Below are positions 33,767-63,986 of a stretch of 64,000 nt of DNA, one piece after another. Numbering within the stretch: the first letter of the stretch is position 1; each line of letters starts with the position of its first letter. The notes below the pieces were generated by a model. It ran no database searches and had not been told where the DNA came from. It was given only the letters and a program-made list of their open reading frames with translations. The DNA lies in contig JAMKCF010000001.1 in assembly GCA_023634235.1 (NCBI GenBank), forward strand, positions 12,472,258 to 12,536,257. Direction: 5' to 3'. Origin of the DNA: Pisaster brevispinus (lineage: Eukaryota; Echinodermata; Asteroidea; Forcipulatida; Asteriidae). A program made the position numbers and the translations under genes.

Positions 33767-34228
33767 ATGAAGCCAGACAAGATCAGTGACATGCAAGTGG
33801 AAATACTAACAGTGAAAGCACTATGCACTAATACAAGTGCAATCTTATTGTCATGCCAATTTGATGACACTATCTGTACACTGTTTATGCCAAAGGCACT
33901 TGCTGAACACTTGTGGAAAAAGACAAGTTCAACACAAATAATAACCATCGAAGGCACTTATGCAGGTTCCATACTGTTGATGTGCCAGTTCGATGGCTCC
34001 ATCTCAACACTACACATGCCAAAAGAACTTGCTGAAGACTTATGGAAATCAACAAGTTCTTCAGAAATAATCGAGGCACTGGAAGCACAACAAGAGTATA
34101 CATTTGTTGTACAGTCTCGAAACATAATTCGCCTTAGTGGCAGTGAGCATCATGAACCCAGTACCTCCAAACCAAAGCCTTCCACTCCCACTTCCAAGTC
34201 TTCAACTAAGAGATGCTCCAAATCCTAG
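33767..34228 (+). CDS. OB-fold-like repeat-family exon, copy 3
   Basis: Nearly identical to the copy at 33,114; the one residue difference I see is Glu to Asp in ELAEDLW. The flanking non-coding sequence is equally conserved, so the similarity reflects recent tandem duplication rather than protein-level selection. Confidence 0.4.
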   Translation: MKPDKISDMQVEILTVKALCTNTSAILLSCQFDDTICTLFMPKALAEHLWKKTSSTQIITIEGTYAGSILLMCQFDGSISTLHMPKELAEDLWKSTSSSEIIEALEAQQEYTFVVQSRNIIRLSGSEHHEPSTSKPKPSTPTSKSSTKRCSKS

Positions 34229-34419
34229 ACTTACAGTTAACTACCATTTCCTCATTCTACTTTAACCCTGTTTCTGTTTCTGTGATAAGTAAACAAACTC
34301 CCTTACATTTGCAAGTGTAAAAAGTTTACTTTGATTTACACTCCTTTGTTTTCCAATCACAACAAATGTGCTTTCATGTGGTTCATAAATTACTAGGTGA
34401 GGCCTTGCACAAAAGCTAG

Positions 34420-35100
34420 ATGAAGCCAGACAAGATCAGTGACATGCAAGTGGAACTACTAACAGTGAAAGCACTACGCACTAATACAAGTGCAATCTTA
34501 AGAGTAACTATAAATATAAATATAAATAGTAAACTTGCGGGTACAACCATGTGTAAAAAACTCTTTGAGGGAGTGTTGGCTCTGAAAAGAGCCGGTTTGG
34601 TCTCGACGTTTCGAACAGTATACTCTGCTCGTCTTCAGGTTTCTCCTGAAGACGAGCAGAGTATACTGTTCGAAACGTCGAGACCAAACCGGCTCTTTTC
34701 AGAGCCAACACTCCCTCAAAGAGTTTTTTTACACATGGTTGTACCCGCAAGTTTACTATTTATATTTATATTTATAGTTACTCTTATCCTCCACACCATG
34801 CAAAGCTTCAAACACCATTTAAGTGCAATCTTATTGTCATGCCAATTTGATGACACTATCTGTACACTGTTTATGCCAAAGGCACTTGCTGAACACTTGT
34901 GGAAAAATACGCACTTGCTGAACACTTGTGGAAAAATACAAGTTCAACAGAAATAATCTTTGCACTTGAAGAACAAGTGTGTACATTTGTTGTACAGTCT
35001 AGAAACATAATTCACCTCAATGGCAGTGACCAACTTCAACCCAGTATCCTCAAACCAGGGCCTCGCTGACTTCATCCTTGTCTTCCACTAAAAAAGATGA
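34420..35100 (+). pseudogene. OB-fold-like exon, copy 4, interrupted
   Basis: It begins like the other copies (MKPDKISDMQVE) and is broken at 34,500 by a palindromic insertion. It resumes at 34,821 with the same CQFDDTICTLFM segment. It lacks the internal duplication of copies 2 and 3 and probably reflects the ancestral single-domain form. A short direct duplication (GCACTTGCTGAACACTTGTG, about 34,890 and 34,911) adds further damage. Confidence 0.7.
34501..34820. mobile_element. Palindromic retroelement-like insertion with 13-bp TSD
   Basis: Two arms of about 140 bp (34,501-34,639 and 34,645-34,784) are almost perfect reverse complements around a 5-base loop. A 36-bp tail follows. The whole is flanked by the direct repeat AAGTGCAATCTTA (34,488-34,500 and 34,821-34,833), and the uninterrupted sibling copies show the empty site. 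Each arm holds CTGAAGA, a 6-bp stem GAGCAG/CTGTTC and GAAAC, close to a hammerhead-ribozyme core as found in Penelope-like elements. Long variable TSDs fit target-primed retrotransposition. Confidence 0.75.
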
Positions 35101-38568: not shown

Positions 38569-40766
38569 CTATTATTATTAGGTGTTCGGGCATTAAGCCC
38601 GAACAACTCATTGTTATTGTTCGTTTTTTTTTTTTTAGGTGTTCGGGCTTTAAGCCCGAACAACTCAATGTTATTGTTTGTTTTTTTAGGTGTTCGGGCA
38701 TTAAGCCCGAACAACTCATTGTTATTGTTCGGTTTTTTTTTTTTTTTAGTTTATCTTTTTCTTTTCAGTGGGCTTTGTCCGCAAGCAAACGCATAGTTTA
38801 GAACCTTTGATGGACTTTAAACTTTGCATGTAGTTAGAGTATAACTACCAGATGCTGAGTAAGTTGTGACGTCACAATTACGTCATCAGGTGATAAATTA
38901 CAAGCCATTTCAGGTCAAAAAGTGACCATATGCCAAAGCTTGTATGTCTCTGAATATTAAAGATATGGTATTTATATTTAGGCATATGATAGATCAAGAC
39001 ATGGGCAACATTTAAAAAGTTAAAGCCAAAATCATATGACCTTTGCTTCCGGTCGTACCGGAAGGTCAAAACGCTGCCTTTGTGTTTTTTGTGTTTTTTG
39101 TGTAAAAAACATATTTTTGGTCATAACTCGAGATTGATTTTGAATTTAACATTGAAACTCATCAGATAATTGAACCTTATTATCAAGACCACATAGACTT
39201 GATGATGTCATGATGACGTCATCAGGTTTCGAATTACAACAAATCAAAATTAAAGATTTTTAAGAAATCATAACTCCTGAACCACATGGTTGATTTTGAC
39301 AATCTACATATCACCGGACAGGTCGATAAAAGTTCAACATATGCTACACACATAGTGACCCCATTTGACCTTGACTTCCGGTTCAAACCTGAAGTTGAAC
39401 AATTTCACAATTTTTTATCTCTAAAACTACGAAACATTTCAACGAAAGTTTTGCATCACATTATAGATGAGTGATCCTGCTCAAACTTTTGCACAGAGAT
39501 GATAACTTTTTAACCTTTGCATCGGCTCAAAACTGGACGTCAAAGCGCACGTGTCCGCTGACCCACAATGTATGATAACGCACATGTACAGCCGGCCACG
39601 TGTAATGTGCTGTATTGAGTACTGTACAGCTACATATAAGATGACGTGATTTCCATTCAAGTTTGGACATGTCACAGTTCAACGAACTTATAACGCAAGC
39701 TTATGAATGGCGCTATTCCGCTTAACCTGTGTCATGTTTAGCGTCAAATTGCTCCCCTATTCGCCCTTCTGATGGCTTTTGGTGAACAAGGATTTGAAGA
39801 CGAAGTTTCACTGAGGTGGCCACCTGCTTCAGTGATTCGTATGACTTTTATTTTTGTGAGAAAAGGCAAGCAGAAAAAGACAAACATTGGTTATGTTTTG
39901 ATCATACACCGAGAAGCAGGGATTTGGCATCGGCACGTCAAGGGCGTTTAAGACCAGCACTCACGGCAGTGTTTATCGGTGCAACACGGTGAATAAAACG
40001 GGAAGCTTCGTGTGAACATTATCGCTTCTTAAAAACGATTTTTTATATAATGCAGTTATGTTATAAAGTTTATCCTTAACCATCAAGTGGTGACGTAGTT
40101 GACGTTTTTTTTTTAATGCAACCAATAGCTCATACTATGCTCGACTTATGCTCGACATCATCGTCAGTGCATATGTATTGAACAATCAAAGTATCATGCA
40201 CCGATACATAACGCGAAGCCAAATCACAGTATTTGAAAACCTGTTAAAACTTTTAAGAATTGTAACTTAATAATGTCAACATGATTTGCATAGTCGGATT
40301 TAATAATCAATAAAGAATCAATTTCCATTGAAAAAACAATAAACTTTAGTGAATGGCATACATGATAGTTGTACTTGTGAGTAATTTACTTCTTATTTGT
40401 TCTGGGCACACAACAACGTTCCTACACATATACCCTATTATGACTTTCAGCCGCAGGGCTAGGGCATGGCCTTTTGTTAAGCTCCGTCGTGCGCATTTGT
40501 TTTGTTTTCTACTGTTTTTTATGCTCTTTCATAATCATTCCAATAGCGTCGATTTAATGATTAATACTGAAGACTATTATAGTAACCAGAATATTTATTT
40601 CAATATGTAAAATAAATGTAAACATGTAATAAATTTACACTTTTTTGAAAGGTCAACACTCAACACCCTTTTTATCGATTCAAATGTTTTGACATCAACA
40701 CAATTACACTGACTCCGACGATACCCGAACACCTAGTGTTTGTTTCAACAAACACTAAACCTCTAG
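38569..40766 (+). mobile_element. Helentron-like non-autonomous element, copy A
   Basis: The left side starts TATTATTATTAGGTGTTCGG and has three palindromic units with GTTCGGGCATTAAGCCCGAA at about 38,584, 38,640 and 38,691 separated by T-runs, then TTTATCTTTTTCTTTTCAGT. The right end has the inverted motif CCCGAACACCT (40,724-40,734), a hairpin with stem AGTGTTTGTT (40,735-40,756), AAACCT and CTAG (40,763-40,766), followed by T. The body has TGACGTCA-like and TTCCGG...CCGGAA palindromes and no ORF that I recognise. Confidence 0.65.
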
Positions 40767-41804
40767 TTTTTGTTTTTTTTAGTTTATCTTTTTCTTTTCA
40801 GTGGGCTTTGTCCGCAAGCAAACGCATACTTGCGAACCTTTGATCAACTTGAAACTTCATGTGAACTTAGAACGTAACTAGCAGAAGCTGAGGAATTTTT
40901 GACGTCACGATTACGTCATCGGATGTCAAATTACAAGCCATTTAAGGTCAAAAAGTGACCATATGCAAATGCTTGTATGTTTGTGAATATTAAAGCTATG
41001 ATGCTCATAATTGGGCATCTGATAGATCAAGACTGGGGCAACATTTGAAAAGTTAACTCCAAAATCGTATGACCTTAACTTCTAGGTCGTTACCCTAGGT
41101 CGAAGTGTACCTTCGATTTTTTTCTTCAAAAAGTCATGTTTTGGGCTTTTCTACAGCATAACTCAAGATTGAAATCGAATTGACGGTTGAAACTTATCAG
41201 ACAATTGGACCTCAGTATCAAGACGCTACAAACATGATGATGTCATGGTGACGTCATTGGGTATTGAATTACATTAAATCAAAGTTTAATACTTGTAAAA
41301 AATCATAACTCATGAACCACATGTTGGATTTTTACAATCTACACATCATCGGATTGGTCGTTAAAAGTTCAACAATTGCTACACACAACATGACCCCATT
41401 TGACCTTGGCTTCCGGTTCAAACCGGAAGTTGAAAGTTTGAAAAATTCATATCTCAACAACTACGTAATATTTTAACATGAATTTTGCATGAGGTTATAG
41501 ATGAGTTATCCTCCCGAAACTTTTGCACAGAGATTATAGCAATTTAATCTTTGCATTTGGTCAAAACCGGGCGTCAAAGCGCTCGTGTCTGTTGACTTTC
41601 ATTGTATGACAACGCACGATAGTGTAGGCCAACGCAAACATACGCCGACACTGTACACAGCCACGCACGTGTACAATGCTAGTTGCTAGTCTTGGTGCAA
41701 TACGTTCTTAGCGGGTTTTTTCCTGACTGATTGGCCATAGAATCGGCTGTGTCACGCTTCACCATTAGAAGACGCTCTATACACATCATTGAACTCCTGT
41801 TCAT

Positions 41805-42162
41805 TATGGCGTGTCAAACGTTGCAATATTCGATAATGTACAATGTATGTGCGATGTTTCTCATATATATGCGATGATTGTCATACATGTGCGATATTCG
41901 TTTTATGTATGCAATATATGTAATATATATGCAATAATTTGTAATATATGTGCGATAATTTGCAATATATGTGCGATAATTTTTTTATATATGCGATAAT
42001 TTTTTTATATTATTTGATAATTTTTAAATATATATTATATGCGATCATGCGATAATTGTTTAATATATGCGATAATTTTATATATATATTTGATAATTTT
42101 TTTATATATATTATATGCGATCATTTGTATGCGATGTTTTGTGATATACATATGCGATAATA
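41805..42162 (+). repeat. Left terminal inverted repeat of the 14-kb transposon
   Basis: AT-rich, built of degenerate units of about 20-30 bp, each with GCGATA or GCGATG followed by ATTT and TATATA. The first 160 or so bases match the right end almost base for base; similarity ends near 42,162. Iteration of GCGAT may offer multiple transposase sites. Confidence 0.9.
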
Positions 42163-42873
42163 TAAAAAAACTGCCCAAGGAGACGCTTGTGTCTCAGTTC
42201 ACGGGGCTTTCGGTAGGACACATTTCTTTATAAAGTTTGGGTCGCACTAACTGATGACAACTCGTTTAAAATGCACTGAAAAACCACGTTTGAAGTAAAA
42301 CAAACACTTAAATGTGTGTAAAAGAGTCTTACCTGTCTGAATTGCCTCCAATCTGGAGGAAAAATTGTGTTTTTAATTCATAAAAACGATTTTCTTCCCG
42401 TACAAAAATGTACAGGTCGACCCTAGCCCTGGTAGGACGCACTGCACTGACGTCCTGGGTATAAACAGATAAAGCTTCTTTACAATGCGAACCAATACAA
42501 TTTTCTTTATTTTTTACCTGATTTGAGAAATTGAAATTCCGTTCATATATTCATATTTTATAAACGAAATGTATTTCCGTCCAAAAAAGACTTGGATATT
42601 GAAGGCATTGCTTAAGTAATAAGTAATACAATTGTTACATTTGTTTGATTTGATGTTACTGATCAAAAGTGTTTATATATGACATTCATACTTTAGCTGT
42701 TTTTTATGAGTCAAAATGGCCTACTTTATTTTTACTAACATTATTCATGCCTAGTTTCAGACAACGAAATGCAAACAAGTAAACATATACTTTGAAACTA
42801 ATTGTTCAGCATAATATTAGGTAAATCTAAATAAAAGTGCTCCCTCACATTAAAATGTTTTTTTTTTTCCTAG

Positions 42874-45800
42874 GGTTGAAATACTACTTGCCATCTCAGA
42901 ATTGGATGGCTCCATCTGGCATATGGATGGCAGTCCCACTAGTTGGTGAAAGTTTTCTGGAGCCAGAAGATGGATGGCGAGCAGATCGAACTTACGTTGT
43001 GGTGTTTCATGGCAGTGCCTCATCGTCATTATCATCCTCGTCAACCGGACCATCTTCCAGTTCCAGCATGTCCCGAAGCAGTCCACTGACAGGTGAGTAC
43101 TCTGTCTTGGAGGGTATTATCCCCAGCCAGTGGCCCAGCATGTATGGACCATTTTGTAATAAAAATTTTATGTCCCCACACTTTTTTCCCATACTAAAGG
43201 GTCAAACGGCTCATGAGAATAGTACTATAAAATATTAAACATGAAATGTCAGAGAGCTGAATTTGTGAGAGAACAAAAAATGTTCTACATGTACCTGTAC
43301 ATGTATGTGGATCACCTAAAACATTTCAGAAGGAAGTTCACAATTTAAAATTCACTGACTCTTTATCTTGTGGGTGCTGTGATTGAAGAAAACATGGGTC
43401 AATGCTGAGAAATGGTCCCTGTTATATTTTTGTGATCAATGAGTTTCTTCATGACACGATAGCAGTCTGGCATTCTGGTAGCAAGCTTATAAGTGAAAAC
43501 AAGTCTAGACCAGCCAGTGTGTGGTAACCACAGACCAGGAGCTTTTGAGATTGTGTATTCCCCTCATAAAGAGTCAGTGGTCTTGTGAAAACACTGCATT
43601 TACAGTGCTACAGTTTATACCTGAGAAAGGGCTAGCAAACTGCATTAATGTTTATTTTTATAGCAACATTGTTAATTTATTGTGACCAGCCACCTGGACC
43701 ATTTTGGTACTTATCTGGCCCTGGACAGTTTAAATTGTTATTTGGCTAAGGGGCCTCTGCCAAGGCTAGTTGTTTTAAAAATTGTATTAAAAATAATATT
43801 TCATGTTAGCTTGAGAAACCCCAGCACTACTTATTTTCAGGTGGGCCTCTGTAGCCCTGGGGGAAAGCCGCCATAATCATGCACACAGCTGTATGCACAA
43901 CACCAAAGAATTCAGCTTCCTGTAAATACATGTGCATATAGTAGCATTTCATGTACACTGTGCCTGTACATGTTAATTACTTTTGAATATTTATCACACT
44001 TGCAGCTTCTGTCAGGGACATGCTACAAAATCCTCGTCAACTTGGGGATGAGGTGGCTAGTTCTTTTAGGTTTGATCCTCGAAGCCACACAAGCTACACA
44101 TGGGATACCAGAGGTAACACGGGGAGGTCCCTTGCCAGAATGCATGGCAAGAGGTCAGCAAAGAAGCAAGCAGTATCTCGTCGAGCGGTGAAGGTAGTTT
44201 TTTACATACGACGTTGAGCTGCCGTCACCATGCAGCAAGTCGGTGGTGGCTCTCGAAACAATCACGGACATTGGATCCGACGACACAGAGATTGCCATAA
44301 GGAACCGACTGCGAGACATTCTAAAGAACTAACCCCAACCCCCCCCCCCCCCCACCAGAGAGGTCACCTCGAGCCAGCTGGCCTTTCTTAACTACTGCGA
44401 TAAGCAGTTGCAGCAACCAGTTTTTGCAGTCGGGTACGAACTTAATGGTGCTAGACTAAAAACTCACATTGGACAAGGGAAGCCGTATGTCCAGATCAAA
44501 GACTGCAAGCAGGTAAGTTGTGGTTTACCCAGGCAACTTAAAAAAGTTACTACCATGCAAAGATGTTTTTGACCTTCGTGTACATTTGTAAGTTTATCTA
44601 CGTGTACATAAATGAACTACTATGCAAACAAAATCATAAATTCTGATGAACTGCTCTTACTTTCACAATTGGGAATAAACACTATGAAAAATATAAAGCC
44701 ATGTGCACATTGGATATTTTTTGGTTAAACCAACTTGAATTGAGATGCTTCTCAATTTCACCAAATGAAGTCCATTGCAGATACTCGGTAAGCTCCAAAA
44801 GTTTTCAAGTATTGATCACCCCTGTTTATTGCTAGTTTTACGGCCTGCAGTGCAGTGCAGTGGCATAGCCAGGGTTTAAACCATAGGGGTGGGTAGGGGG
44901 TCGGGTGGGCTTGATGTGCCGCTGCTGCAGTGGTAAGTTTTAAAGGCTGACAGGCCGGACGGTTATTGTAACTTATAACTCTCATCGTGACCATCTGACT
45001 CGTATTCATGTACTTTACTGTACTAAGCAAGTGTCCACTGGAGCATGAATAGTACGGGGTAAGTTACAGTGTGTGCTGAAAATTTGCACAGGCTAAAATT
45101 AATCTAAATGCAGATGCACCGTCATGTAGAATTACCACTCAGTAACAGTCTTTCTCAGAAACTTTTGAGTAAAATAATTCCAATGTCAACACAGCTGGTT
45201 GAAGGTGCAGTGACATCGTTTGTCATTTAACCTTATGTCAAATGAAGCAGAGACATGGCATCATGTAATGACACAACTTTCATGTAATGCCGCTGAACGT
45301 ATTCCACATTTCCACTTGTAAGAAGTACAAACTTGCTACCAAAAAGGTCTTCATATTATACACTGTGTGATGATGAGTTTCCTTCATTTCAGCAGTCACA
45401 GTCTGACAGTGACTCCGATGACTTGCCTGTCATAATGCCTGTAAGACGGCGTCAGAGAAATTCATGTGTTACTGTACACACAGATGAACATGTAAGTGTA
45501 ATGCACACTGGATGCATAATATTAATTAATCATAGACCATTTTGATTTGAGTGGTAGTGTTGTTGCACTCATTTAAAGTTCCATGTGGTAGGAGAAAGAG
45601 TTAGTGGACTACTGTGAAGCCAATACCCCCAAAACAGGTCAGTGTTGTTTGGGTGGCACACCTCTGTCTTTAAATACTGAGACAGCTGATAAACTGGGGC
45701 TGTATAAAATCCCTGGGAAGGTGACTCACAATTTATTCCACTGCAAGCTTGAACCATTTGTAAGTGGTTCTGTAAGTTTCTGTTAACCATATTCTGAAAC

Positions 45801-48800
45801 AGCAACTTTCAATTTTGAGAAAAGTGTACTGAGGGGACCATCCCATTACGTGTCAAATTGACACTGTCATTTTACTTTCAGTTTGTTTTATTTTTACGCA
45901 ATGTAAACTTTGTATAGTATAATTAAATTGCTGAGTAATAGGTAAATGGAAACCAAATGTGACTAGTTCTTTTCTTGAAAATCAGAAGGATAGTTGCTGT
46001 GCCTTAAGGAAGGTTAATTGCAAAACGTTTTTCATAATTGTTTCTTGCATTGCCTTACTGGTTTTACCTTCAGTACAGCGACCCTGGGACTTCAACAAGT
46101 GCGGTTAGACCAAGTACGTCCAGTAACACCTGTAAGTTTTTCACATGCGCTGGTAAATTTCGGAGTCAAGTTTATTTTAACTTTGCCAACTGCTATGGCC
46201 CTCATTCAAACAATGTTGTATATTATTTAAAGACCTTGTTTAACCATGTGAGAAAAGTATGACAAAATAGGTAATCTCGGTCAACTTTGGAAAAATGTGT
46301 AACTAGTCTAGGTAAAATAAAATATAAAAAAGTTACATAAAGAGGCTATTTTATAGTAGAAGGGTGTAACATACTTTTTGTACGCAATTATTCTGAATTG
46401 AAAAATATGTTACCAAGCTGAATTTTAAGTGTTTCATCTTGAAAATTACCGAAAAAATTTGACATGGAAAATAGCGGACAACATCATGAACATAACATAT
46501 ATTCTCCAAAATAGTATGGTACTGCAATATTTTGCATGTTCACTTTCTACACCAAACTGTGGTTTCAGTGCCAAATTGAATTTATGTTTTACAAATTCTA
46601 ATGCACATTTTTCAAAATTGCCCGGGAAAAGCTGTAACAATGTAGTCCTTCACAAATGTCAAAGTCCAGATATTTTTATTTACCTATATTTTTGGGCCCT
46701 GTCCCATTTCAGAAAGTCAGTTAAAATGCATATTATCCCTTTCCTCTTCGCTTCTACAGATGACAGTGAAGCTTCCACCACTCTGAATGACAGCGATGTT
46801 GTTGTTTTCAAAAGTGCTGTCCCATCAAATGAACCGGTTCCACAGGTACAAGTGCAAGCAATTATAAATACTTCCTTTGTAAAGATATTGGTGCATTGAT
46901 CACTCTTCTCAATTTCGTACCTGTTGACTTGTAAGATATATTTGTTGTGTTTAAAAGAAAGAACAAGAACCACCATACATCTGGCACAGATAGGGCATTG
47001 CGGGGAGGGACATCCAAAATATTAATCACCTGGAAATACACGTAGATGTTGAATGTGAGTTGGGTCATTTTGGTTTGTAGTTGAGTTGGGGCCCTTCATG
47101 GTCCACTTTTATTGATTTTGAAAGTCATATAAACAAAACATCTAGAGAAAAAGAAGGAATAGAATGGATAACATGCTTTGAAGTAATCCTGTGGTGAAAT
47201 AACCTTTGGGAAACTTTTTGGGTACATATATGCGAAGAACAAATAACCAAATGCTCCCTTCATTGTACATTAAACAAAATACTGAAAAGAATATTCACAG
47301 GATAGAGATGGAGAGGAAGTTTCATGGACAAGTGTGACTGGAGGTAGTTTATTTTGCAATGTTGCTTAGGCCTATGTTCGATGTGAAATGCTTGGTGTAA
47401 TAGCATATCAAGTAAAATCAAATTAGGTATCTGTCATTTTTAGTTTGATACTGGTTGACTGCGATAATTTTGTAGACCTAAGTCAATTTAGTTAATGCTT
47501 CGCAGAGCTTATTAGGCATATTTGCTATTTCCAAACATTGAGGAATTTTTTTTTATTCACACTATAGGGAGCCAGTACACCTCATCAAAAAGCAGCCACA
47601 CCCGTTGCACTCAGCAGGCCAACATGTACCTCCTCAAAGTAAGTTGCTGTATATGTGTGAAAATTCACTAATCTGCACTAATTAGCTAGAATGCCCTTTA
47701 AGCATATCTAGCACTTTATTAAACTAAAAATCATGTCAAGATAACTAAAGCATCCATGTGAAGTACCCACCTAGAGGTACTTACAGTAGCAACAACTTTG
47801 CAAGATTTTGAGAATGCTGATAAGAGGCTGATTTTTGGATGGAAATTTGTTCAATCAGAAAATTGTAAAAGACATTAGTTATCAAAGCTATCCATGCATG
47901 TTACACGATGATAGAATGGAGAAATGCCTTGCCATAGGCAATAACCACAATAGCTTCAATGATTTATGTCTAGTTAAAACAATACAAGGTCATTAGTGTT
48001 TATGAAGGGAAGAAGGAATCATACATTTAACACAATTTTGGCGGCTTACATTAATCTCTATCTGTATCTGTGTACAGGTATACTTCAATAACCTTTATTG
48101 AGCACATGTCAATTATATAAAACATTGCCTGAATCACAAAGAAGCAAGTGGCATTCAAGTCAAACAGTGTCACCAAATTCAGTTGAGTTTACTGGACCAA
48201 CTTTTTTTCTCTTTTGTTTGCAAGTTCTTCATTTTATAGTAGATTTGTATTGTACATGTACATATAAAGACAACACTTATCAAGAATGTTTCTTTTTCTT
48301 CTAGCTATCAAGCCTATGTAGAGTTAGGAGACAGTGGAGATGTGTCTGATTTTGAAGATGAGGAGGCTGACTTGAATCGGGCGATTCTGAAAAGCCTTGA
48401 AGATCAGCAAGCACTTCAAGACCACACATACTCTGATACCCTCAAGGACACGTTGCGTCAAATGCAGCTGTCCTTTTGCAAGGAGGATCAGAGTCGCATC
48501 ATTGTGCATCGCAGGAATGTATTGGCAAGCACCCTCCGTGCAGTCACGCACTCTACCTTATCAGCTCATGGTTGAATTTGGTGGCCCAGCTCGGGAATTT
48601 TTAAGGTAAATTAAGTTTCAATTGCAGATTTTTGGGGAGCATAAATAAGGCAATTTTAACACAACTATAAAAAGTGTCTTTATTGCAGGCAAGTGTTAAG
48701 GAGTTATGCTGTTTAAGTTTACACATCTAGATGGAGTGGGGATATGAAACATTTTCATTGGCTCTAATTCTCATGTCATCCAACATGGGAACTTCTTGGA

Positions 48801-51719
48801 AAAAAATAAATAAATAAATAAATAAAATAAACAAATACAATTTTACAAGCTCAACGTGTGTCAATTTAAGTTTTAGAAGGATAAATTTAAGACTTCCAAA
48901 TAATTTTTTGATGTCAGGGTTTGTGCAGGATTCAAAAGACACTAATGCACATTGCCTTTCTATCCTCTCAGAAAAGAAATTAGTGGAACTGCAGCATCAG
49001 TTACATAGGTAAGCAAGTGGACTTCACCAGTAATTGTATGCAAGAGCATGTTGAGTCTAACCTTGAATTTGACATACGAGGTGGATTATCATTGCATTTG
49101 CTTTTAACACTTATTTCAGATTGCTGATGAAGGACATATCAAATAAGATTCTGGTTGGGCCAGAAGACAACAAGGTCTTCCTGTATGACATTCGCTTCCT
49201 GGAGAATCAATTATACAACACCTGTGGGAAGTTGACATCATGGAGCCTAATGCATGGTGGACCAGGCCTTCATTGCTTAAATGATGCAATGTTGAGGCTC
49301 ATGATGGGTCAGAGAGTCTGTGCTATGAACTTCAAAGACATCCCTGAGGAAGATGCTCGGGCTAGAATAAACCAGGTGAGTATATTGCAGTCATTGAAAT
49401 ACTACTATTTTGGCCAGTTGTGAAATGTTGCGTAATTTCTGACCGTCAATGGGCACAAGTAGATGATCTTCTTTTCGAGGAGGGGGGGGGGGGTTCACAC
49501 AGTCTCCATTTATTTTTCTCATGTTATTTGTTGTACTGAGTCCTTGACGAAAAATGTAAGTTTTAGATAAAGAAGAATTATTTTTTACTGTACAGTTTGA
49601 GTCGCTGATTCATGCTTTCAAATCAGCAAGAGACCTGGTCACTGATATTAAATGGCCCGAGCCCAAACAGCTGTAAACAATTTATTTATTCATCAGCAAC
49701 ATACAATGCATAAGTTTTTTAATTCATATCCCGACTCAAACCTGTAGAATGGCAGATCGGTGTCACCAACTTGAGTTGAGTTTACTGGACCAACTTTTTG
49801 AGAGTACATGTAGTGTGCAATACTGTATTTAACATTTTGAAACAAGCTTATGCTTTGCAGTTAAACACTTATTTTTTTTCTTTTCAGATAATTGAGACTA
49901 AGGATGCCACAGAAAATCAAGACATTATATCAGATTTGGCAAGTTGGCTAATTGACTGTGGCTGCACTCGGTATACAGCTGGAAAGTATGTGGACAAAGA
50001 GAAATGTGTGAATTCACTATGCAAGTTCTTCTTGTACTACCGGTAAGAGTAAATATCACCTTATACAATATATTCATTTCCATTGTCACTATCATTAAAC
50101 AACATGCATATAGCTTTACGGGGGAACACTACCCTCGCCCATATCATTCAGTTGGATGTACATATAGACAACTACAAATTCAGGCAGCAAATTTGTTGGC
50201 AGATGAATTTCATAAAATATAAATTCTGAAAGAAAATTAACTGCCAAGAATGTGTTAGATTGTGATGGTCCGAGGTTTTAATTTTAATATTTGTGTAGAA
50301 TCAGTTTTTGACCAACCTTTTGCATTTCATGCAAACATGGAAAAGAACAATTACACTAATCATTTTATTTATTTATTTACATCTTGGAAGGCAGCTCTGA
50401 TTACTAAAATTAGACACTTTTCACTTCAAAGGATCAAGCCAGCAATCGATGGATTTGTATCTGGGATGGATGATGTAGGTCATGTGTGGAGCACTTTCAT
50501 CTCCTCTGTCCGGGGTGCCAAGGATATGTTGTGCTACACGGATGGCAAGCTAACTGTGGATCACTTCAAAGAGATATACACAGTGGAGAGATCTCCCAAT
50601 GGAAGTAACCAGCACAGTGCTGAACTGGATACACTCTACTGCTGGGAAGTGTATCTGCATGAGTGTGAAGGTCGGTTGAAACTACTTTTAATTATTGAAC
50701 ACATTGGGTATAGTACTCAGCACAATGAGCTCTCTGACCATAGCTAAGATAGTGGACTCTTTCATGGTTGCCTGCATTGCCCTATGATTTCCTGTTCGTT
50801 TTTCCCCTTTCCCCCTTTTTTAGCTATCACCTCGAGTGGCCTGCCTTGGGCCTTGTGGTTGGCGATTTCCCATAAAAAAACAATAAAATAAAAAAATAAA
50901 AAAATATAAAAATTGCAGGTGTGGGCTGTATCAAGAGCAATGCAATTATTATACACAGCGACATAGCTGGAGGGGGAGGGGGCGTGGGGTTCCCCCAACT
51001 GGAAATTGGGCCAACTATTAAGAAAAGAATGTTAGTATTACTAAGGGGAAAAAACAGGTTGATAAAAAAATCGAAAAGTATCAATAATTGACCTTTAAAA
51101 TCTATACTAGCAATGGAGTTCATGGGATATCAATTTCACATAAATCATTAATCTAACTTTAATGCTATGTTCGCACTGGGTGTTATTTTTATCAAACTCA
51201 CATTGACATTGTCTACTTTCCACTCTCCAAAGTCAAGTGCTAAAAATCCATAAATTTAGAAGTCTCATTTGTGACTTAACAAGACTCATATTTAATTTAG
51301 CTAGGACCATTTCAATTTTTCCATTTTTAAATGATATTGAAAAGAGAACCATATTTTTAAGCTGTTTTTTTCCAATTCCATTACCAGGAATACCACTTTA
51401 AATGCTAAAAATAAGTGGATGAATGATCAATACAAAGTGGGATTTTGTCCATGCAGGTTCAGCCGAGATCAACCTAAATCGCCTGTTGGAGTTCATAACG
51501 GGAGCATCCAGGGTCCCACCTCTGGGATTCAACAAGCAGATCACCATAGCTTTCTTCTCGTCATCCAACGAAGAAAGGCAGTGCAATGCCAGAAGATTCC
51601 CGTCTGCATCAATCTGTGGGTTGCAATTAAACCTACCTCGGGGGATCTCAGATCCAGATGAGTTCAAAGTATCGATGGATAGGGCCATTCTTGAGTGTTG
51701 TGGCTTTGGAAGACTTTAA
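42874..51719 (+). pseudogene. HECT E3 ubiquitin ligase gene (G2E3-like), transposon cargo, about 15 exons
   Basis: Exons inferred from AG/GT boundaries and phase: 42,874-43,092; 44,006-44,512 (with a frame problem near 44,200); 45,393-45,491; 45,592-45,759; 46,074-46,131; 46,760-46,845; 47,301-47,343; 47,568-47,639; 48,305-48,605; 49,120-49,375; about 49,596-49,670; 49,888-50,042; 50,432-50,670; 51,457-51,719. The N-terminal part is Ser-rich and low complexity. A ubiquitin-interacting motif (EEADLNRAILKSLED) precedes the HECT domain: RIIVHRRNVLASTLRAV, GGPAREFLR|LLMKDIS, LMHGGPGLHCLND, and a C-lobe LLEFITGASRVPPLGF with the catalytic Cys in SASICGLQLNLPRG, ending at the usual short C-terminus. 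The ligase would pass ubiquitin from E2 to a target via that Cys. One base shifts frame at about 48,550, and several residues expected before GGP are absent, so this copy is probably broken or the assembly has an error. The 5' exons are uncertain. Confidence 0.8.
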
Positions 51720-53786
51720 CCACAGTAAACCTTGGATAAGTCTAGTGAAAATGGACAACCTGATTTTGGTCCGAGTATTTGACCAATTGGGCACCACGAT
51801 AACTGTGTTCTTCAACCTACATGTATATATAAAACAGTTTGCATCCCCCCATGATTGAATGTACAATCTGCCCTCAACTAACCATTTAAAAGATGCTCTG
51901 GACTTCTGAGTGACAAATCTTTGACCCCAGAGCGTCTGAAGCCTCTCTTATTACCTGTCATGCTAAAACAAGACATGTTGTATAGCTGTGAAACTCATCC
52001 TTTTCTACTTTTGGACTGTCTCTTCATAAAGTGTATCAATTTGGGGTGTTTTTTCTGCCCAAATCACCCGATCTCAGGAAGAATACATTTTAAAAAGAGG
52101 CTGATATGCTGAATTTGACATTAGAGCCCCTCTTTAAATCAGTATAGAGTCAGTTGAGTTGTACATAGATGGAGACAGTTAAATTGTTATTAAATGTTCC
52201 AAGAAGTTAATGTCTCCAACCCCGTATTTGGTTACTGAAAAGTACCATGTTCTCAGAAATTATTGCACTTTAATTTTTTTCAAATACTGTTGTTAGGAGG
52301 CGATTTAAACAGTAGGCCTACATCAATTACTTCCAATTTGACCTCACCACAAGTCAAGTGTATGTATTATCTTGCCAGATATCCATGTATCGCTTTATTA
52401 TACACAAAAACAATATGATATGGTTTGTTTTATTAAATGTTATTTATTTGGTTTCCATTATTTCAAAGTAAATTTTCTATTAGACAGACATGTACATGTA
52501 CAAAGTGTCGTACTCAACATGACACTTAAACAAAAAATAATGCCAGGTTTTTACTGCCACCGCTTTCCAAGATTATTTTCTTGGTCATTTTTGCCACAAA
52601 TTGGACAGTATTTGTTTCTTTGCGTTTTTCTTCTTTTTTCTTTTGGGAGGGGGTGATTCAGTGCCTCCGAAAATTAGGCCCAACAAGATTAAGGACAGTC
52701 TGAAAGTTTTCAAATTAACTAATTGAATCATATGGAGGATATCACTTTTTAACACTAAAATGACATTAAAGGGAAACTCAAGAGTAATTTCATCCATTTT
52801 CAAAATAAGCATTTGTTTGTACATGTTCACTGTGTTACCAATCAACCACAATAGCAAACACTTTTTAGGATCCCATTTACATATGTATCTTTCTTGACAT
52901 GGCAGTTTCTGCATATGGGATGTTCATCCTATTTTACACTGAAAAGATCCCTGTACTGATGATGCAGACTTTTTTACATGTGTGTTTTTCTATAAACATG
53001 TAAAACAAAAGTTGTTTTTTTCACAAAAATAGAACAAAGGGCCTTATTATTCAACCCCCCCCCCCCCTAACCCGGTTCTAAATGTACCTTACATGGTCAT
53101 ACAGCTGATGCTGTGATCTTATTTAGGATCCCAGGAATTTGTACTGGGTAAATGACCAAAAATATATATGTAAATTAATTTTTATTGTATGGTACAGAAA
53201 TTGTAGGCAGAAATACATGTACTGTATGTACTTTTTTGAATTTTTTTCTTTTCACTTGGCTTCATGAGAAAAACATTCCAAAATTTACAGCAAGTTATAA
53301 AGTGGCAAGTTATTTGTTATAAATGTATTTGACTTTACCTCAGTGACTACCAAATGAGAAACATTCATTGGGATTGCATTTGAAATTGCTGAATTATAAA
53401 AGCTTATTTCAGTTTGGACCAAACAAAAACTAACTTTTTCTTTGAAATAATAAATTAAATCAAAACTTATGGTACTACCCAACCCAAGCCTAATTTTAAA
53501 ATAAAGTTTTTGCGATGGTGTTAGGTAACATGTACATAGGTTTTCTAAATCCAGACACTTAAACCACTAAAACAATGAACAAATAACACAAACAGATTAT
53601 GACATTTTCACTTGTTTCGGTAGCTGCTACAAATGAATGCACTATAAATAACTGACCATTATCTCGCCTAAGTTTAATCTCGCCCCAGTAATTGTGCTAA
53701 AAAAATTCAACAACAAAAGAAATTTACCAAGACACCATTTCTTTTTGAAGGTTTGAAGTTAGTTTGAAGGTAGTTTTGTACCTCAA
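51720..53786. other. Spacer between HECT and transposase genes
   Basis: AT-rich, non-coding, between two convergent genes. It must hold both polyadenylation sites. It has a C-run at 53,058-53,067 and scattered CATGTACATG. No ORF that I recognise. Confidence 0.5.
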
Positions 53787-55394
53787 TTACTGAGCCACTA
53801 CATTAACATGGGCAGCCATAAATGCATTAACATAATATCGCACAGAATGATAAATATCGACACCATAGTTGTCACTTTCAGCAAGGGGATTGAAGCGAGC
53901 CTGCAATTCCTCAATGTCAACATGCTGCACTCTTGTTTCAGGCACTTCCACAACTATACGGTCATCTGGTAACTCTTCAGTAGGGCATGGGGGTGGTTTC
54001 AGGATCAATTCCGAATGTGTCAATGTCCAAGCCATTGCCATCTTCATGCAGGTTGAGTCGACCAGTAATCCATAGCTGAATAGGTGTACAGTTACGCTCT
54101 GAACGCAGGCTGTGGTTATTGTATGCCACTGTGAACTCTCTCAGGCACTTGTTAATCCGAGGAAGGTAAACGAAATGAAGACAAAACATATCCACCTCAG
54201 ACTCCACATCAAGCATTCCACCTCCCTCTAAGTGGTAGAACAAGCTGTAAAATGTCTGTATTACAGCATAGTACACATCCCGCCACAGACGTTCAATACG
54301 ATCTTCTCTCCTCCATGATAGCCTCAACTGTTACGTTTTCACTTCCTTTATCTGCCCTTACTCGCGATGGTAATCCATAATGTGCAACAGCATCAAGAAA
54401 CAAATTACCTACAGTGTCTGCTCGGTTGTTGTCGGAGCACTGTAGATACACAATGAGCCTGCTGTACCCATCTATGCTACCATGAGTCACTAGGCGCCAT
54501 CTTATTAGGGCATGGTGACCATCGATGTGCCAGAGACTATTTGTGCCTGGCACGCTGTAAACTCGTCTTCGTGCCATTAAACCCCATCGTAGAGCTGAGT
54601 TGACAGGGTCAACACTTTTCAGGGCAATCCTTATCCTGTTCTGCTGAACAACAACACCACGGGACCGTAAATGTCCAACCATCATGGTAAAGCCACAATG
54701 GGGGTGTTCATGATAAACTGAACGTACATGCTCCGTAAGGTCATCATCACTGATGTCACTGTAACGATTAAGTATGTGTCCACTCTGCTGCAATCTTTTC
54801 CAGAGTGTTGTCCGACACACCAAAAACATGCGGGCTATGGCAACAAATTTGAATCCAAGATGAAACAAAAATGAAACCTGATCGAGGTTAATGTTGAATC
54901 TTGGACGACCTGGGCATGCTGGGCCGGGAACGGCAGAAACTTCAACCATGCCAGCATTTCTCAATGTGCATAGTGTTGTGTTCCATGAGTCTCTCATTCC
55001 ACAAGGTCTTGATTTCCTGCATTACTCTCAACAATGATGATATTTTCTCTGAAGTTGCAATTACTGCTGCTAGTGAACGGCCTGGCCCGACGTCAGCATG
55101 GTCATCAGTGTCACTGTCAGTGTCACTAACAACGTTAACGTCAACATCAACAACAGTAACAGTAACACTGCTAGTGCTATCGTTTATCATGTTTATGCTT
55201 ACGTCAGATGATGATTATTCCCGTAGGTTGTCATGGATGGTTACTAAAGCACGCACGTACCGCTCGAGTCTCAGCACAATATCTTCTGCATCAGAAAATT
55301 CGTTTGAAGAGTACTTCACTTCACAAAAATTGATGAAATCACGTAAAGAAATAAAAAACTGTCCAGCCCCAGGGTCTCCTGCTTCCGCAGCCAT
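53787..55394 (-). pseudogene. IS3/rve-like DDE transposase of the 14-kb transposon, broken
   Basis: The likely start is the ATG at 55,394 (MAAEAGDPGAGQFF). The frame has an in-frame stop near 55,214 before MINDSTSS, so either a nonsense mutation or an intron lies there. The next frames hold an HTH-like region ([21 protein letters not shown]), then the integrase core: Asp in [13 protein letters not shown] (about 54,527), Asp in VRADKGSEN (about 54,345), then, after a frameshift near 54,310, [13 protein letters not shown] with the probable catalytic Glu. Only about 20 residues separate the second Asp and the Glu instead of about 35, so part of the catalytic core is deleted. Further pieces (53,977-54,327 and 53,787-54,047) give the C-terminal region (YNNHSLRSERNCTPIQLW). 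The enzyme would cut and join TIR ends; this copy looks dead. Confidence 0.85.
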
Positions 55395-55633
55395 TTTATT
55401 CCCTTGTACATGTATATACGCGAATCAAGTCTCATTCCCTGACCATCAGTTAAACCCGTACGCCCACCTCAGTGAACCATACTATACCATCCATAGTCTG
55501 GCCCGATCTAAAACATCAAGGATACGGGGATCAAGTGGACAGGAAGCCAAACTATATCCCACAATTCCGTTTTCGCACATATATTGAACGAACATCAAAT
55601 ATATATATTGGTGTAACATCGCACATGTATATT

Positions 55634-55980
55634 AAATTATCGCATATGTATATCACAAAACATCGCATACAAATGATCGCATATAATATATATAAAAAAA
55701 TTATCAAATATATATATGAAATTATCGCATATATTAAACAATTATCGCATGATCGCATATAAAATATATTTAAAAATTATCAAATATATATAAAAAAATT
55801 ATCGCATACATAAAAAAATTATCGCATATATATTGCAAATTATCGCACATATATTACAAATTATTGCATATATTGCATACATAAAACGAATATCGCACAT
55901 GTATGACAATCATCGCATATATATGAGAAACATCGCACATACATTGTACATTATCGTATTGCAACGTTTTACACGCCATA
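55634..55980 (-). repeat. Right terminal inverted repeat of the 14-kb transposon
   Basis: Reverse complement of 41,805-42,162 with small indels. It has the same GCGAT-containing units and ends ACACGCCATA. Short ORFs on it mirror those of the left repeat and are not genes. Confidence 0.9.
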
Positions 55981-56003
55981 CTTCATGTACAGACATATAA
56001 TAC

Positions 56004-56298: not shown

Positions 56299-56504
56299 AC
56301 CGACAGCGCCTATGGAAATCAACGTCTGGATACCGTAATTTTAAAAGCACCCGACCATACCCAAACTATGGGCAAAATCCGCGAAAACGCAAGCAAAAAC
56401 ACAATTTTTTTATCGATTAAAATGTTCTGACATCAACACAATTACACTGACTCCGACAATACCCGAACACCTAGTGTTTGTTTCAACAAACACTAAAGCT
56501 CTAG

Positions 56505-56770
56505 TTTTCACTGCTTTCCTACTGTTTAATTCTCACTGCTTTCATACTATTACAATCTTACTGTTTAAATCGCAATGCTTTTGTTACATTAAAAGCTAAT
56601 CGCTTTCTTACTCTTAAAATCTATTGGCTTTTATACTGTAAAAATATCACTACTCTTACTGTTAAAATCTGACTGCTTTCCTATTAATAAAAACGTCACT
56701 ATATCCTGATTAAAATTTCAGTGTTTGCTAACTGTTGAAATATTACTGTTTTCTGACTTGTGTAATCTTA
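56505..56770. repeat. Degenerate tandem repeat of about 26 bp
   Basis: Variants of CACTGCTTTCCTACTGTTTA recur about every 25-35 bp, beginning directly after the CTAG end of Helentron-like copy B. From 56,770 to 57,120 I see only AT-rich sequence. Confidence 0.6.
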
Positions 56771-60169: not shown

Positions 60170-61591
60170 CTAGTCTCGATACCTGGAAGGTACCCGATGG
60201 CTTCTCTTGGGATACCTCCGACACTCTGGTTCGGATACGTAATCCCTATTGCTTATCTTTAGCATCTTCCCTTGAGACGCTTCCTCACCTTCCTCTTTCA
60301 GCGTCCCTCTCTCGGACACCGATTTCTCTCTAAGAGAGTTTCTCCTAACTCCCTCTCCTGGCGTCTCTGCTTCAGACACAACCTCTTCTACTGTGTCACT
60401 CTGACAGTTTTCTTCTTCACCTACTTTGCCCTCTTTAGACATTTCAGTAATCTCGTGCACCACTTCCTCAACCTGAGGGTTTCCTTCCATACTCTCCAGA
60501 GTCCAGGGAACCAACTTTTCTCCCTGGTACGGCTTCAGCCTATCGGAATGTACCACTTTGAGCTTCCCATTCCGCCGCAACTGTATGCGGAATGTCACAT
60601 CCGACAACTTCTTCACTACGAGCCACGGTCCCTCCCATCTCAGCTGGAGCTTGGGGGACATTTGCTTCCTCCTTGCCGAGTTGTGCAACCAGGCGAAATC
60701 GCCCTCTTTGAGACCCTTCTCGGTTGCTCTTCGGTCATAATTCCTCTTCTGTCTCTGGGCGCTCTTCCCGAGACATTCTCTTGCCCTCTGATGGGCAGTC
60801 TGCAGATTACTACGCAGCTCTTCTGCGAAGTCTGTGTTAGTTTCAACCTCGGTCTCAGGACAACCTGTTGTCAAGTCCACCGGTATACTAACTTCTCTTC
60901 CCAACATCATCATGTTGGGCGACTCCCCTGTGGAGTCCTGTGGGGTGCATCTGTATGCAAAGGTTGCATAAGGGAGGAACTTGTCCCAATCCTTCTGCTT
61001 CCCATGCGGACTAATGAGAGCTGCCACCATGTTCACTAGTGTCTTGTTAAACCGCTCTACCATTCCGTCACTCTTCGGATTATAGGCGGTTGTTCTCGTC
61101 TTTGTTACCCCTAGTATCTGGCACATCTCTTTGAACACCTCTGACTCAAAATTGGTGCCTTGGTCAGAGTGCAGCTCTTGTGGCACTCCGTACCGACACA
61201 CAAACTCTTGCACCAACTTGCGTGCTACTGTACTGGCCGTCGCATCTGGCAACGGAAACGCTTCCATCCATTTTGTACAGTAATCCCCTATCACTAGGAT
61301 CCACCGGTTCCCACTCTCTGTCTTGGGCAGTGGCCCAAGCAAATCTATTGCCACTCTTTCCATGGGAACTCCTACTCGGTACTGTTGCAAGGGAGCTATC
61401 CCTTTCTTTGCAGGGGACTTCCTTCTTGCACACAGGTCACAACTCCTTATGAAGGAGCGTACGTCTGCGGACATACCCGGCCAGAAATATCTGTATTTCA
61501 TCTTCGCCAAGGTTTTAGTCATGCCCAAGTGACCGCTAAGCTGTCCACCATGCACTTCTCTGAGTATCTCTTTCCTCATACTCTGAGGCAC
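60170..61591 (-). CDS. Integrase of gypsy-2
   Basis: The zinc-binding HHCC region (HGGQLSGHLGMTKT ... CDLCARRK) is complete, as is the catalytic triad: AIDLLGPLP, LHSDQGTNFES and DGMVERFNKTL with DX35E-like spacing. A GPY/F-type module (LQLRWEGPWLVVKKLSDVTF) and a Ser/Glu-rich tail ending in a basic patch (RRYPKRSHRVPSRYRD) follow. Integrase inserts the cDNA into the genome. It should be fused to RNase H; one base shifts frame near 61,590, and the apparent start MPQSMRKE lies just after this break. Otherwise intact. Confidence 0.92.
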   Translation of the reverse strand: MPQSMRKEILREVHGGQLSGHLGMTKTLAKMKYRYFWPGMSADVRSFIRSCDLCARRKSPAKKGIAPLQQYRVGVPMERVAIDLLGPLPKTESGNRWILVIGDYCTKWMEAFPLPDATASTVARKLVQEFVCRYGVPQELHSDQGTNFESEVFKEMCQILGVTKTRTTAYNPKSDGMVERFNKTLVNMVAALISPHGKQKDWDKFLPYATFAYRCTPQDSTGESPNMMMLGREVSIPVDLTTGCPETEVETNTDFAEELRSNLQTAHQRARECLGKSAQRQKRNYDRRATEKGLKEGDFAWLHNSARRKQMSPKLQLRWEGPWLVVKKLSDVTFRIQLRRNGKLKVVHSDRLKPYQGEKLVPWTLESMEGNPQVEEVVHEITEMSKEGKVGEEENCQSDTVEEVVSEAETPGEGVRRNSLREKSVSERGTLKEEGEEASQGKMLKISNRDYVSEPECRRYPKRSHRVPSRYRD

Positions 61592-63986
61592 TTAGTAGCC
61601 ATCTTACTACTTTGCCATTGTCTGACTCCCATCTCTTATGAACCAACTCATCTCTGACACATAACTGGTCCCAATAAGACCAATATGTCTTATGAGCCGC
61701 CGTCAAGTGGGAAATCTCCCTCCACTCAGGACGGTCCTTGCCCTCCTCTTTGGCCCCTAAGACCCAACTCATGGACTCATCCTCTACCTGGGCTTTTCTG
61801 AAAGCCTCCACGGGGATACTTGGTTGGGCTGCTACGCCCCTAACCAACAACTTTTCCTCCCGTGCATCTTTTCTTTCTAACGTCTCCTCAGACGTTCCGT
61901 TTGTCTCTCCCTGTTCTACCAGTTCTTCCCGGCCACACTGCTTGCAGGGTCGTCTTGACAACCCATCAGCGTTGCCGTGCTTCTTTCCAGCTCTGTGCTG
62001 GATCTCTATATCATACTCGGAAATTACCTCGAGCCAACGTGCCATCTGCCCTTCCGGGTTCTTAAAATTAAGAATCCATCTTAAGGCGCTGTGGTCAGTT
62101 CTGACTGTGACCTTCCTGCCATAGATGTACTGTTTGAAATACTTCAAGTACACTACAACGGCCAACAACTCTCTGCGGGTTACGCAGTAGTTTCTCTCTG
62201 GCCTGCTTAGCTTGCGGCTAGCATAAGCCAGAACTCTCTCTTCACCCTCCTGAACTTGACTCAACACCGCCCCAATGCCATCTCCACTAGCATCCGTATC
62301 GAGGATGAAGTCTCCCTCCGGCTTGGGGTTTGACAAGATCGGAGATGTTTGGAGTCTACTCTTGAGTTCTTCAAATGCACTCTGGCATAACTCACTCCAC
62401 TCAAACTCTCTTGACTTCTCTGTCAGAGCATGCAAAGGGCTAGCTATCTCTGCAAAACCCTGTATGAACTTTCTGTAATAGGATGCAAGGCCAAGAAAGC
62501 TTCTTACATCCTTCACACCCTTAGGGACAGGCCAATCTCTGATGGTCTGTATCTTCTTCGGATCGGTGGCTACGCCTTCTGTCGTCACTATGTGTCCCAA
62601 GTAGGTCACTGACTCCTTAAACAAGTGGCACTTGCTTGGCTTTAACTTAAGCCCTGCTTGCCTGAGTCTACTGAACACCACTCTTAGCCTCTCTATCATC
62701 TCTGGAACTGTCTTACCAAAGACAATTATGTCATCTAGATAAATCAGCAGGATTTCCCACTGTAATCCAGACATGACCTTCTCCATAAGTCTCTCGAAGG
62801 TAGCTGGGGCGTTACAGAGCCCAAATGGCATACATTTCCATCTGTATAGTCCTTTTCTCACAACAAATGTTGACTTCTGACTGGCATCATCATCTAAGTC
62901 AACCTGCCAGTATCCCGACGCCAAATCAAGCGTTGAGAACCACTTCGCACCACTTAACGCATCGAAAGTCTCATCAATGCGAGGCACTGGGTACGCATCT
63001 TTTATGGTGACCGCGTTTAACTTTCTGTAGTCTACACAGAAACGCTTGGTCCCATCTTTCTTGCCTACCAGTACAACATTGGCTGCCCACGGACTATCCG
63101 AAGGTTCTATCACTCCTCTTTTCTCTAGGTCAATGACCTGTCTCTGAATCTCTCTTTGGACACAGTCAGGGTGCCTCCTTGGTCTCTCTTTGACTGGTCT
63201 CGCATCTCCAGTGGTTATGTGATGTTTCACAATATCCGTCCTACCCATATCTTGATCACCACTGGAGAAAACGTCTTGGAACTCTACCAAGCATTCTCTG
63301 ACTGGACCAAGGTACTCGCCTTCTACATTACTTGTACTTCTTCTGTACAAGTCTAGTAATTGCTTAGGCAAACCCTGTGTCGCCTCACTAGACCCACTTG
63401 CCTCCTCTCTGATCGCCTCAGGTTCCACCGTGGAAATTGATCCCACAGTGATCCCCTTACGAGCTACTCTTTCCTCTTTGCCTGGGTTGAACACCCGCAA
63501 CGGAACAATCTTGTTCCCGGACTCTACCAGTGACCTGGCCAAGACTAAGCCTTTCTGGGCTAAGTCTCCACCTCCTTCCATAGGCTCAACTATGGCCGGC
63601 CCAGCAAACTCTTCGTCTCTTCTAGCAATAATGCCTGGCACTACTGCCTCATGCCCGGAAGGAATTATGGTTGTCTCTGCAACCACGATTCTCCCAATAA
63701 ATGGCTCTCCAGCACTACTTGTGCATTTGATCCTCTCGCCATTTATTCTCCACTCTTTGGTCTTGAAATCCAAATTACCCCCTGTGGGCAAAATGAAATC
63801 CATCCCTAAAATTCCGGAGTACTTCATCTCAGTGAAAATCGCTCTCACTGGGTGTGTTGCTCGCCCAACCTGAACATCGACCCATGCGACTCCCAGTACT
63901 GACAGGGGACTTCCATCCACCTGCCTAACTCTTACACTGTCTGTCTCCAAGACAGGTCTCTGTTCTCTAGGGATCTCGTAATACAC
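61536..63986 (-). CDS. Protease C-terminus, reverse transcriptase and RNase H of gypsy-2 (partial)
   Basis: The frame is open to the window edge, so the true start lies outside. The first 80 or so residues are the end of the aspartic protease (GILGMDFI motif); the DTG active site is not in the window. RT motifs are complete: VDYRKLN, FSTLDLASGYWQV, MPFGLCNAPATFE and YLDD in LLIYLDDIIVF, then SFLGLASYYRKFI. RNase H follows (LDTDASGDGIGAV, ELLAVVVYLKYFKQY, RTDHSALRWI, GNADGLSR). The last 20 or so residues are out of frame; the protein continues into integrase after a one-base shift near 61,590. This is the best preserved pol in the window. Confidence 0.92.
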   Translation of the reverse strand: MYYEIPREQRPVLETDSVRVRQVDGSPLSVLGVAWVDVQVGRATHPVRAIFTEMKYSGILGMDFILPTGGNLDFKTKEWRINGERIKCTSSAGEPFIGRIVVAETTIIPSGHEAVVPGIIARRDEEFAGPAIVEPMEGGGDLAQKGLVLARSLVESGNKIVPLRVFNPGKEERVARKGITVGSISTVEPEAIREEASGSSEATQGLPKQLLDLYRRSTSNVEGEYLGPVRECLVEFQDVFSSGDQDMGRTDIVKHHITTGDARPVKERPRRHPDCVQREIQRQVIDLEKRGVIEPSDSPWAANVVLVGKKDGTKRFCVDYRKLNAVTIKDAYPVPRIDETFDALSGAKWFSTLDLASGYWQVDLDDDASQKSTFVVRKGLYRWKCMPFGLCNAPATFERLMEKVMSGLQWEILLIYLDDIIVFGKTVPEMIERLRVVFSRLRQAGLKLKPSKCHLFKESVTYLGHIVTTEGVATDPKKIQTIRDWPVPKGVKDVRSFLGLASYYRKFIQGFAEIASPLHALTEKSREFEWSELCQSAFEELKSRLQTSPILSNPKPEGDFILDTDASGDGIGAVLSQVQEGEERVLAYASRKLSRPERNYCVTRRELLAVVVYLKYFKQYIYGRKVTVRTDHSALRWILNFKNPEGQMARWLEVISEYDIEIQHRAGKKHGNADGLSRRPCKQCGREELVEQGETNGTSEETLERKDAREEKLLVRGVAAQPSIPVEAFRKAQVEDESMSWVLGAKEEGKDRPEWREISHLTAAHKTYWSYWDQLCVRDELVHKRWESDNGKVVRWLLSASEYEERDTQRSAWWTA

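Follow-up and report, generated by a model that had tools for sequence, protein, structure and literature searches.

Does a spliced ubiquitin ligase gene found inside a transposon belong to that transposon, or has it merely come to lie there? The question is raised by a 14,176-bp element (family A) at positions 41805-55980 of a 64,000-nucleotide stretch, here called the window, of contig JAMKCF010000001.1 from the 549.7-Mb, 512-contig genome of Pisaster brevispinus. An earlier note on the window had described this element as an IS3EU-like transposon whose cargo is a spliced HECT gene, and that description stands on the ends, target duplications and gene content of the element and on the recurrence of the arrangement in sister families. 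HECT and rva_4 transposase genes are recurrently linked in this lineage, a point on which we have very little doubt, and because in sister elements of this genome the two genes again occur together and are laid out alike, HECT looks like a regular passenger of the lineage and not an accident. The best explanation as a whole, which we consider probable, is that the window holds a decayed member of an IS3EU-like cut-and-paste lineage in which HECT is an accessory gene.

The left terminal inverted repeat (TIR) of the window element, 361 bp long (41805-42165, plus strand), AT-rich and built of subrepeats of ~20 bp, is mirrored by a right TIR of 349 bp (55632-55980, minus strand), with 94.5% identity over 362 aligned columns. 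The termini read TATGGCG...CGCCATA; the element starts with TATGGCGTGTCAAACGTTGCAATA and ends with its complement, one substitution apart. Directly outside lie the hexamers of the target-site duplication, GTTCAT (41799-41804) and CTTCAT (55981-55986), which agree at five of six bases; 6-bp duplications also occur across the family. The inverted ends of about 350 bp, the TAT...ATA termini (TATGG...CCATA) and the 6-bp duplication with its one mismatch are therefore as the earlier note had them. Its further claim, that the element sits inside an interrupted repeat, holds in part. Pieces of a ~2.03-kb direct repeat do lie in the flanks (80% identity for 38734-39583 against 40767-41617, and 96% for 40669-40770 against 56407-56508), but on either side the similarity ends short of the insertion point; the window therefore offers no readable empty site, and the interrupted repeat was rejected as proof of insertion.

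Between these ends two broken genes converge. The rva_4 transposase gene lies on the minus strand (53787-55394), and two pieces of it match PF24764 (rva_4) in Pfam at 7.2e-39 and 1.4e-31, values that pass the curated cut-off in each case. Its D, D and E catalytic motifs are visible in the alignment, and the reading frame contains one stop and is broken at about three points. The earlier note had called it a broken rve/IS3-like transposase; it is indeed broken, and the rve match itself (9e-07, 29.5 bits) falls under its cut-off of 32.6. The closest protein, P0003, is 60% identical over 71% of the query, and the named relatives come from scallop, oyster, mussel, sponge and coral; an IMG/VR scan with a piece of the window transposase as query gave 14 pattern matches, none of them confirmed. 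The window copy has no open transposase frame, such as an autonomous active transposon would possess.

The HECT gene, multi-exon and on the plus strand, was mapped by eye as 16 candidate intervals from 42873 to 51719, ~14 of which are plausible exons with phases left unreconciled. The last exon (51457-51719), which contains the catalytic cysteine position and ends in ...CCGFGRL before the stop, matches PF00632 at 2e-11 and the EukProt gene model P0002 at 4.7e-17, and the joined C-terminal HECT exons reach 1.5e-14 and 54.8 bits against PF00632, for which the Pfam cut-off is 23.9. Upstream on the same strand, the exons at 50420-50671 (E 1.3e-8) and 49120-49375 (E 1.4e-6) also match P0002, as does, weakly, that at 48306-48606 (E 0.006), which has a frame break near 48560; the exon at 49889-50041 aligns in place with P0002 and had no separate match in the P0002 search. 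The candidate middle exons, spread over 45394-47639 (45394-45491, 45594-45638, 46073-46131, 46761-46846, 47302-47346 and 47568-47639, plus strand), were placed by eye on splice-like borders and are without homology support. By eye, too, we placed the candidate N-terminal exon or exons at 44006-44513 (plus strand), with a poly-C tract, a frame break near 44200 and an in-frame TAA near 44332; the N-terminal exons showed no independent homology in the comparison with P0002. The earlier figure of about 15 exons is thus backed in part: it fits the intervals placed by eye, and independent homology covers four of the five HECT-domain exons, one of them weakly.

The catalytic cysteine occupies an invariant column (C372) in a three-row alignment of families A and B with P0002, the region around it is in register with the C-lobe of AREL1, and from sequence we infer ligase function for the HECTs of these elements. 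We take the window HECT to resemble the G2E3-like ligases, given its C-terminal ...GFG-hydrophobic end and its catalytic cysteine in an LPxxHTC-like motif. G2E3 has N-terminal PHD/RING-type fingers; the window gene yielded no PHD/RING, nor any other Pfam match at E 1, in its N-terminal 289 amino acids, which come from exons placed by eye. A protein search with the window HECT returned P0002 as its single match, and a profile search returned 12, the best being P0123, a metagenomic HECT with 222 member sequences; scans with P0123 gave 5 pattern matches in IMG/VR and 18 in GTDB, none confirmed.

The same pair of genes recurs elsewhere in the genome. Our genome searches score the best candidates only, and the counts are lower bounds; they gave 32 matches for the window HECT, 60 for the window transposase piece and 78 for the Pfam HECT, merging into 40 HECT loci and 56 rva_4 loci. 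Eight of the 40 HECT loci have an rva_4 locus less than 15 kb away, at gaps of 2.4-5.3 kb, and all eight pairs are convergent. Random placement gave a mean of 0.12 such loci, with a maximum of 3 in 20,000 trials, versus the 8 observed, the null being one of uniform positions and copies of the same family not being independent. At the family level the paired loci number five, namely families A, B and E and two further convergent HECT/rva_4 pairs, family C (C1:14.27 Mb) and C1:13.83 Mb. By search origin, pairing was found for 5 of the 14 loci detected with the window HECT and for 3 of the 26 detected only with the Pfam HECT. Over the matched stretches, transposases at paired loci share 29-53% identity with that of the window, and for HECT exons in families B and C the identity to the window HECT is 33-52%; the pairing is therefore not the product of a single recent duplication. 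In A, B and C alike, the HECT exon matches are interrupted close to residues 177-191 and 321-324 of the query, which suggests a single intron-bearing ancestor.

Two sister families could be followed to their ends. Family B includes three HECT-bearing elements of 13.9-14.9 kb, each with a perfect duplication: C16:11941268-11955553 (CTTACT), C12:9979118-9993988 (CTTAAG) and C1:8561705-8575574 (GTGTTA). With C5:9557420-9563980 (GGTACA), in which no HECT was seen, the 6-bp duplications are perfect in all four complete copies tested. The family-B boundary, at L045:2454, was set by comparison with other copies, and the terminus TACGAAAGCCCATTAG occurs at all 13 further ends picked from that comparison; the ends of family B begin TACGA, those of family A TATGG and those of family E TACGG. 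A 2.9-kb stretch of the C16 copy holds an unbroken transposase frame (320 amino acids; PF24764 5e-27) together with a 46-copy, 31-bp minisatellite, and the last HECT exons of this copy are open and retain LPSAHTC.

Family E comprises three elements of 10.3-11.2 kb, at C7:19382286-19393495 (GTGTAC), C16:6751505-6762253 (GAAAAC) and C1:12748980-12759230 (AAAACC), with perfect duplications in all three tested. Its end, TACGGAGCCCGGGAGGTGACATGCC, was predicted from 1.5 kb of the C16 copy and then used in a pattern search allowing up to 2 mismatches, which found 15 sites, and none in a reversed control; the sites group into three long inverted pairs and a further pair of 725 bp, with 7 single ends. 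In the C16 (6.75 Mb) and C7 (19.39 Mb) copies the HECT lies on a 637-amino-acid open frame, no stop interrupts the matched HECT stretch of these two copies, and the catalytic cysteine of the family stands in an AHTC motif. The third element, on C1, is missing from the HECT locus list; 571 bp at the spot predicted from spacing hold RPVAHTCGPVLDLP, which matches P0124 (36% over 50 amino acids, E 8.7e-6) and is a fragment of a HECT C-lobe, with no full gene, and the transposase match of this element contains one TAA. The ends of A, B and E all carry short tandem repeats (~20 bp in the window TIRs, 31 bp at L045:1002-2429 and, by eye, ~31 bp at about 255-790 of L061), and the lengths of these arrays seem to vary between copies.

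Chance neighbourhood or an assembly artefact, by which independent genes would lie between unrelated repeats, might be entertained for the window element taken singly, whose flanking DNA is repeat-rich. But at six other sites, on C1, C7, C12 and C16, both genes are enclosed by inverted ends and perfect 6-bp duplications, which refutes this idea unless the assembly is wrong at every one of them, and we give it next to no credence. A one-off capture, in which HECT entered a single element by chance and no standing link exists, is very improbable: the same convergent pair is present in seven complete elements of three families, that of the window included, and at two further loci. The window HECT search did find no close copy of that gene in the genome, and the relatives of the window element with the same ends are without it, as set out below, yet the recurrence strongly disfavours such an event. 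Of the two possibilities that the earlier note had left side by side, a standing association is better supported than a single capture, since sister families, likewise bounded by inverted ends and by 6-bp duplications that are perfect, have the convergent pair as well.

Several observations weigh against HECT as a working part of these elements, and the first comes from family A itself. The left end of the window element gave 42 genome matches, and in the loci around them we looked for the two ends and for any genes. Among the best 40 of 76 candidates we count at least 18 complete siblings of ~0.5-3.1 kb, a count that includes L036 and, as two, the repeated pair in L018, and excludes loci with one recognisable end (for example L015, L021, L023, L025, L034, L038 and L041). 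Perfect 6-bp duplications flank 17 of the 18, and L013 has none. Not one of the 18 carries HECT or the transposase core, and tblastn over L009-L044 gave no match to HECT or to P0003. The earlier note had held that copies of these ends never containing HECT would refute its proposal, and among the scored copies of the family of the window this is what is found; the siblings are not decisive, because they also lack the transposase core, and we rejected them as proof against cargo for that reason. They are deletion derivatives, mostly two inverted copies of the transposase-side end, and one (L026) retains sequence up to window position 54978, the N-terminus of the transposase. The two short elements of L018 (C74:277900-284700) lie 4.1 kb apart with the identical duplication GCAGCG and are probably a segmental duplication. 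The duplication of the sibling L036 (C13:10815858), GTTCAT, equals the hexamer at the left flank of the window element.

Family B weighs in the same direction. Among the best 40 of 101 candidates scored, at least 20 loci have transposase sequence, and only the three long ones carry HECT, the other 17 having none in the HECT genome searches. Fifteen of those 17 have both ends, 2.7-6.6 kb apart, and two have one end. The matched transposase segment contains a TAG in 13 and no stop in 4 (C18, C10, C5:9.56 and C4:21.65, the last a shorter match), and these four copies, like the abundance of HECT-less copies in general, argue that HECT is not needed in cis. For 32 of the 40 HECT loci in the genome, the 15 kb around them contain no rva_4 match; some of these unpaired loci, for example C1:10.23, C17 and C167, are related to the window HECT. 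The window HECT search, moreover, gave no match to the HECTs of family E and of C1:13.83 Mb; for this reason, and because the family-E gene is single-frame, these HECTs may be separate acquisitions, although intron loss may instead account for the single frame of family E. The top-scoring HECT loci (for example C4:9.1, C8:6.7 and C19:9.5 Mb) also have no rva_4 locus nearby and are taken for ordinary cellular genes. Unpaired relatives of the window HECT form a multi-copy group, at C1:10232714-10235160 (minus strand), C1:10264515-10267102 (plus strand), C17:6762276, C167:65422 and C15:5934885, which has no rva_4 match nearby and may ride on another element or consist of stranded copies.

These observations bear on what HECT does for the transposon, if anything, and we judge a role in the life of the element to be an even call. 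As a mere passenger, captured once or a few times, the gene would be copied along without use to the transposon and be free to decay. Both genes of the window are broken and most family-B copies have multiplied without HECT, as this would predict, but the catalytic cysteine is retained in the families examined, the order is convergent at all eight paired loci, and in two family-E copies the 637-amino-acid frame runs through the matched HECT stretch without a stop; we think a mere passenger rather unlikely. An accessory role is argued from the recurrence, the constant orientation and the kept catalytic cysteine. In the mechanism we propose, full-size elements of 10-15 kb would have, adjoining their right end, a DDE transposase of the rva_4 type, with a HECT gene reading toward it; HECT would be expressed from the element and act in trans, ubiquitylating a protein that limits transposition, such as a host silencing or repair factor, or tuning the transposase; and short copies that have lost HECT would still be moved by full-size relatives. 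Either target, host factor or transposase, falls short of an even chance when taken by itself. We prefer a host-directed ligase, by analogy with the TET/JBP enzymes of fungal IS3EU elements. The main rival is a ligase that regulates the transposase of the element itself, by self-limiting turnover or by stabilisation. It would suit the pairing of the two genes on one element and the greater number of HECT-less copies in family B, expected if HECT restrains movement, but deletion derivatives are generally known to outnumber full elements anyway, and we hold such self-regulation to be unlikely.

We propose, tentatively and at less than even likelihood, that an animal branch of IS3EU-like elements has long kept HECT as a second gene with which host proteins are disarmed or adjusted, that stranded copies seeded part of the G2E3-like HECT repertoire of hosts, and that pogo-type transposons, to judge from P0002, may share the gene. 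If true, a spliced E3 ligase on cut-and-paste transposons would give selfish elements a direct route to host protein stability, and the targets of the ligase, as well as the feeding of HECT gene expansions in marine animals by transposition, become testable questions.

The remainder of the window holds other repeats and coding regions. On the minus strand at 506-8310 lie large open frames, one helicase-like, one long and Rep-like, with an OTU-like DGNCFFRALS and a PHD-like motif, which by their motifs look Helitron-like; a 54-bp minisatellite of ~14 units (4693-5448) falls within a long open frame. Two retrotransposon-like coding regions on the minus strand (21919-26893 and 60173-63998) are presumably Gypsy-like, judging by reverse transcriptase and integrase motifs. 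Direct repeats 653 bp apart occupy 32527-34953 (plus strand), with 300-bp stretches 99% alike in three copies plus one diverged copy, and at 34499-34786 lies a hairpin whose arms are perfectly complementary over stretches of 85 and 62 bp. A 149-bp inverted pair (11460-11608 and 31418-31566), 97% complementary and 19.8 kb apart, could possibly mark the ends of another element.

How, then, do these elements compare with known systems? Among the titles listed by our literature searches, in a collection that mostly excludes subscription papers, none points to HECT as transposon cargo or to a link between IS3EU and HECT, so that a description elsewhere is possible, and the main text of PMC10045372 has no occurrence of HECT or ubiquitin. 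P0002, which combines HTH_psq and a DDE_1 pogo-type transposase with a PHD-like match below the Pfam cut-off and HECT, is alike in placing a related HECT (27% identity over 80% of the query) beside a transposase, but its transposase belongs to another superfamily and it is a single gene model; it may represent another transposon superfamily that has acquired this cargo, or else be a fusion made by gene prediction. According to PMC10045372, elements of the IS3EU superfamily have a DDE transposase of the rve type, terminate in TA..TA and usually produce duplications of 6 bp; rust-fungal IS3EU, according to PMC12730594, have TAYGG..CCRTA ends and TIRs over 30 bp. The present elements share with IS3EU, including GingerRoot, an rve-like DDE transposase, TA..TA termini, 6-bp duplications and terminal inverted repeats, with TAYGG-type ends in families A and E, and we call them IS3EU-like on this structure; unlike known IS3EU they reside in an animal, measure 10-15 kb and carry a HECT ligase, and the ends of family B are TACGA and not TAYGG. 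A parallel to a ligase cargo, should our proposal prove true, would be the TET/JBP genes of fungal elements, which PMC12730594 proposes to counter methylation and places between the transposase and an alpha-kinase, those two being oppositely oriented. Both systems carry accessory enzyme genes, and the alpha-kinase there runs opposite to the transposase as HECT does here, whereas the fungal enzymes are a TET/JBP dioxygenase and an alpha-kinase and that of the sea star elements is a ubiquitin ligase.

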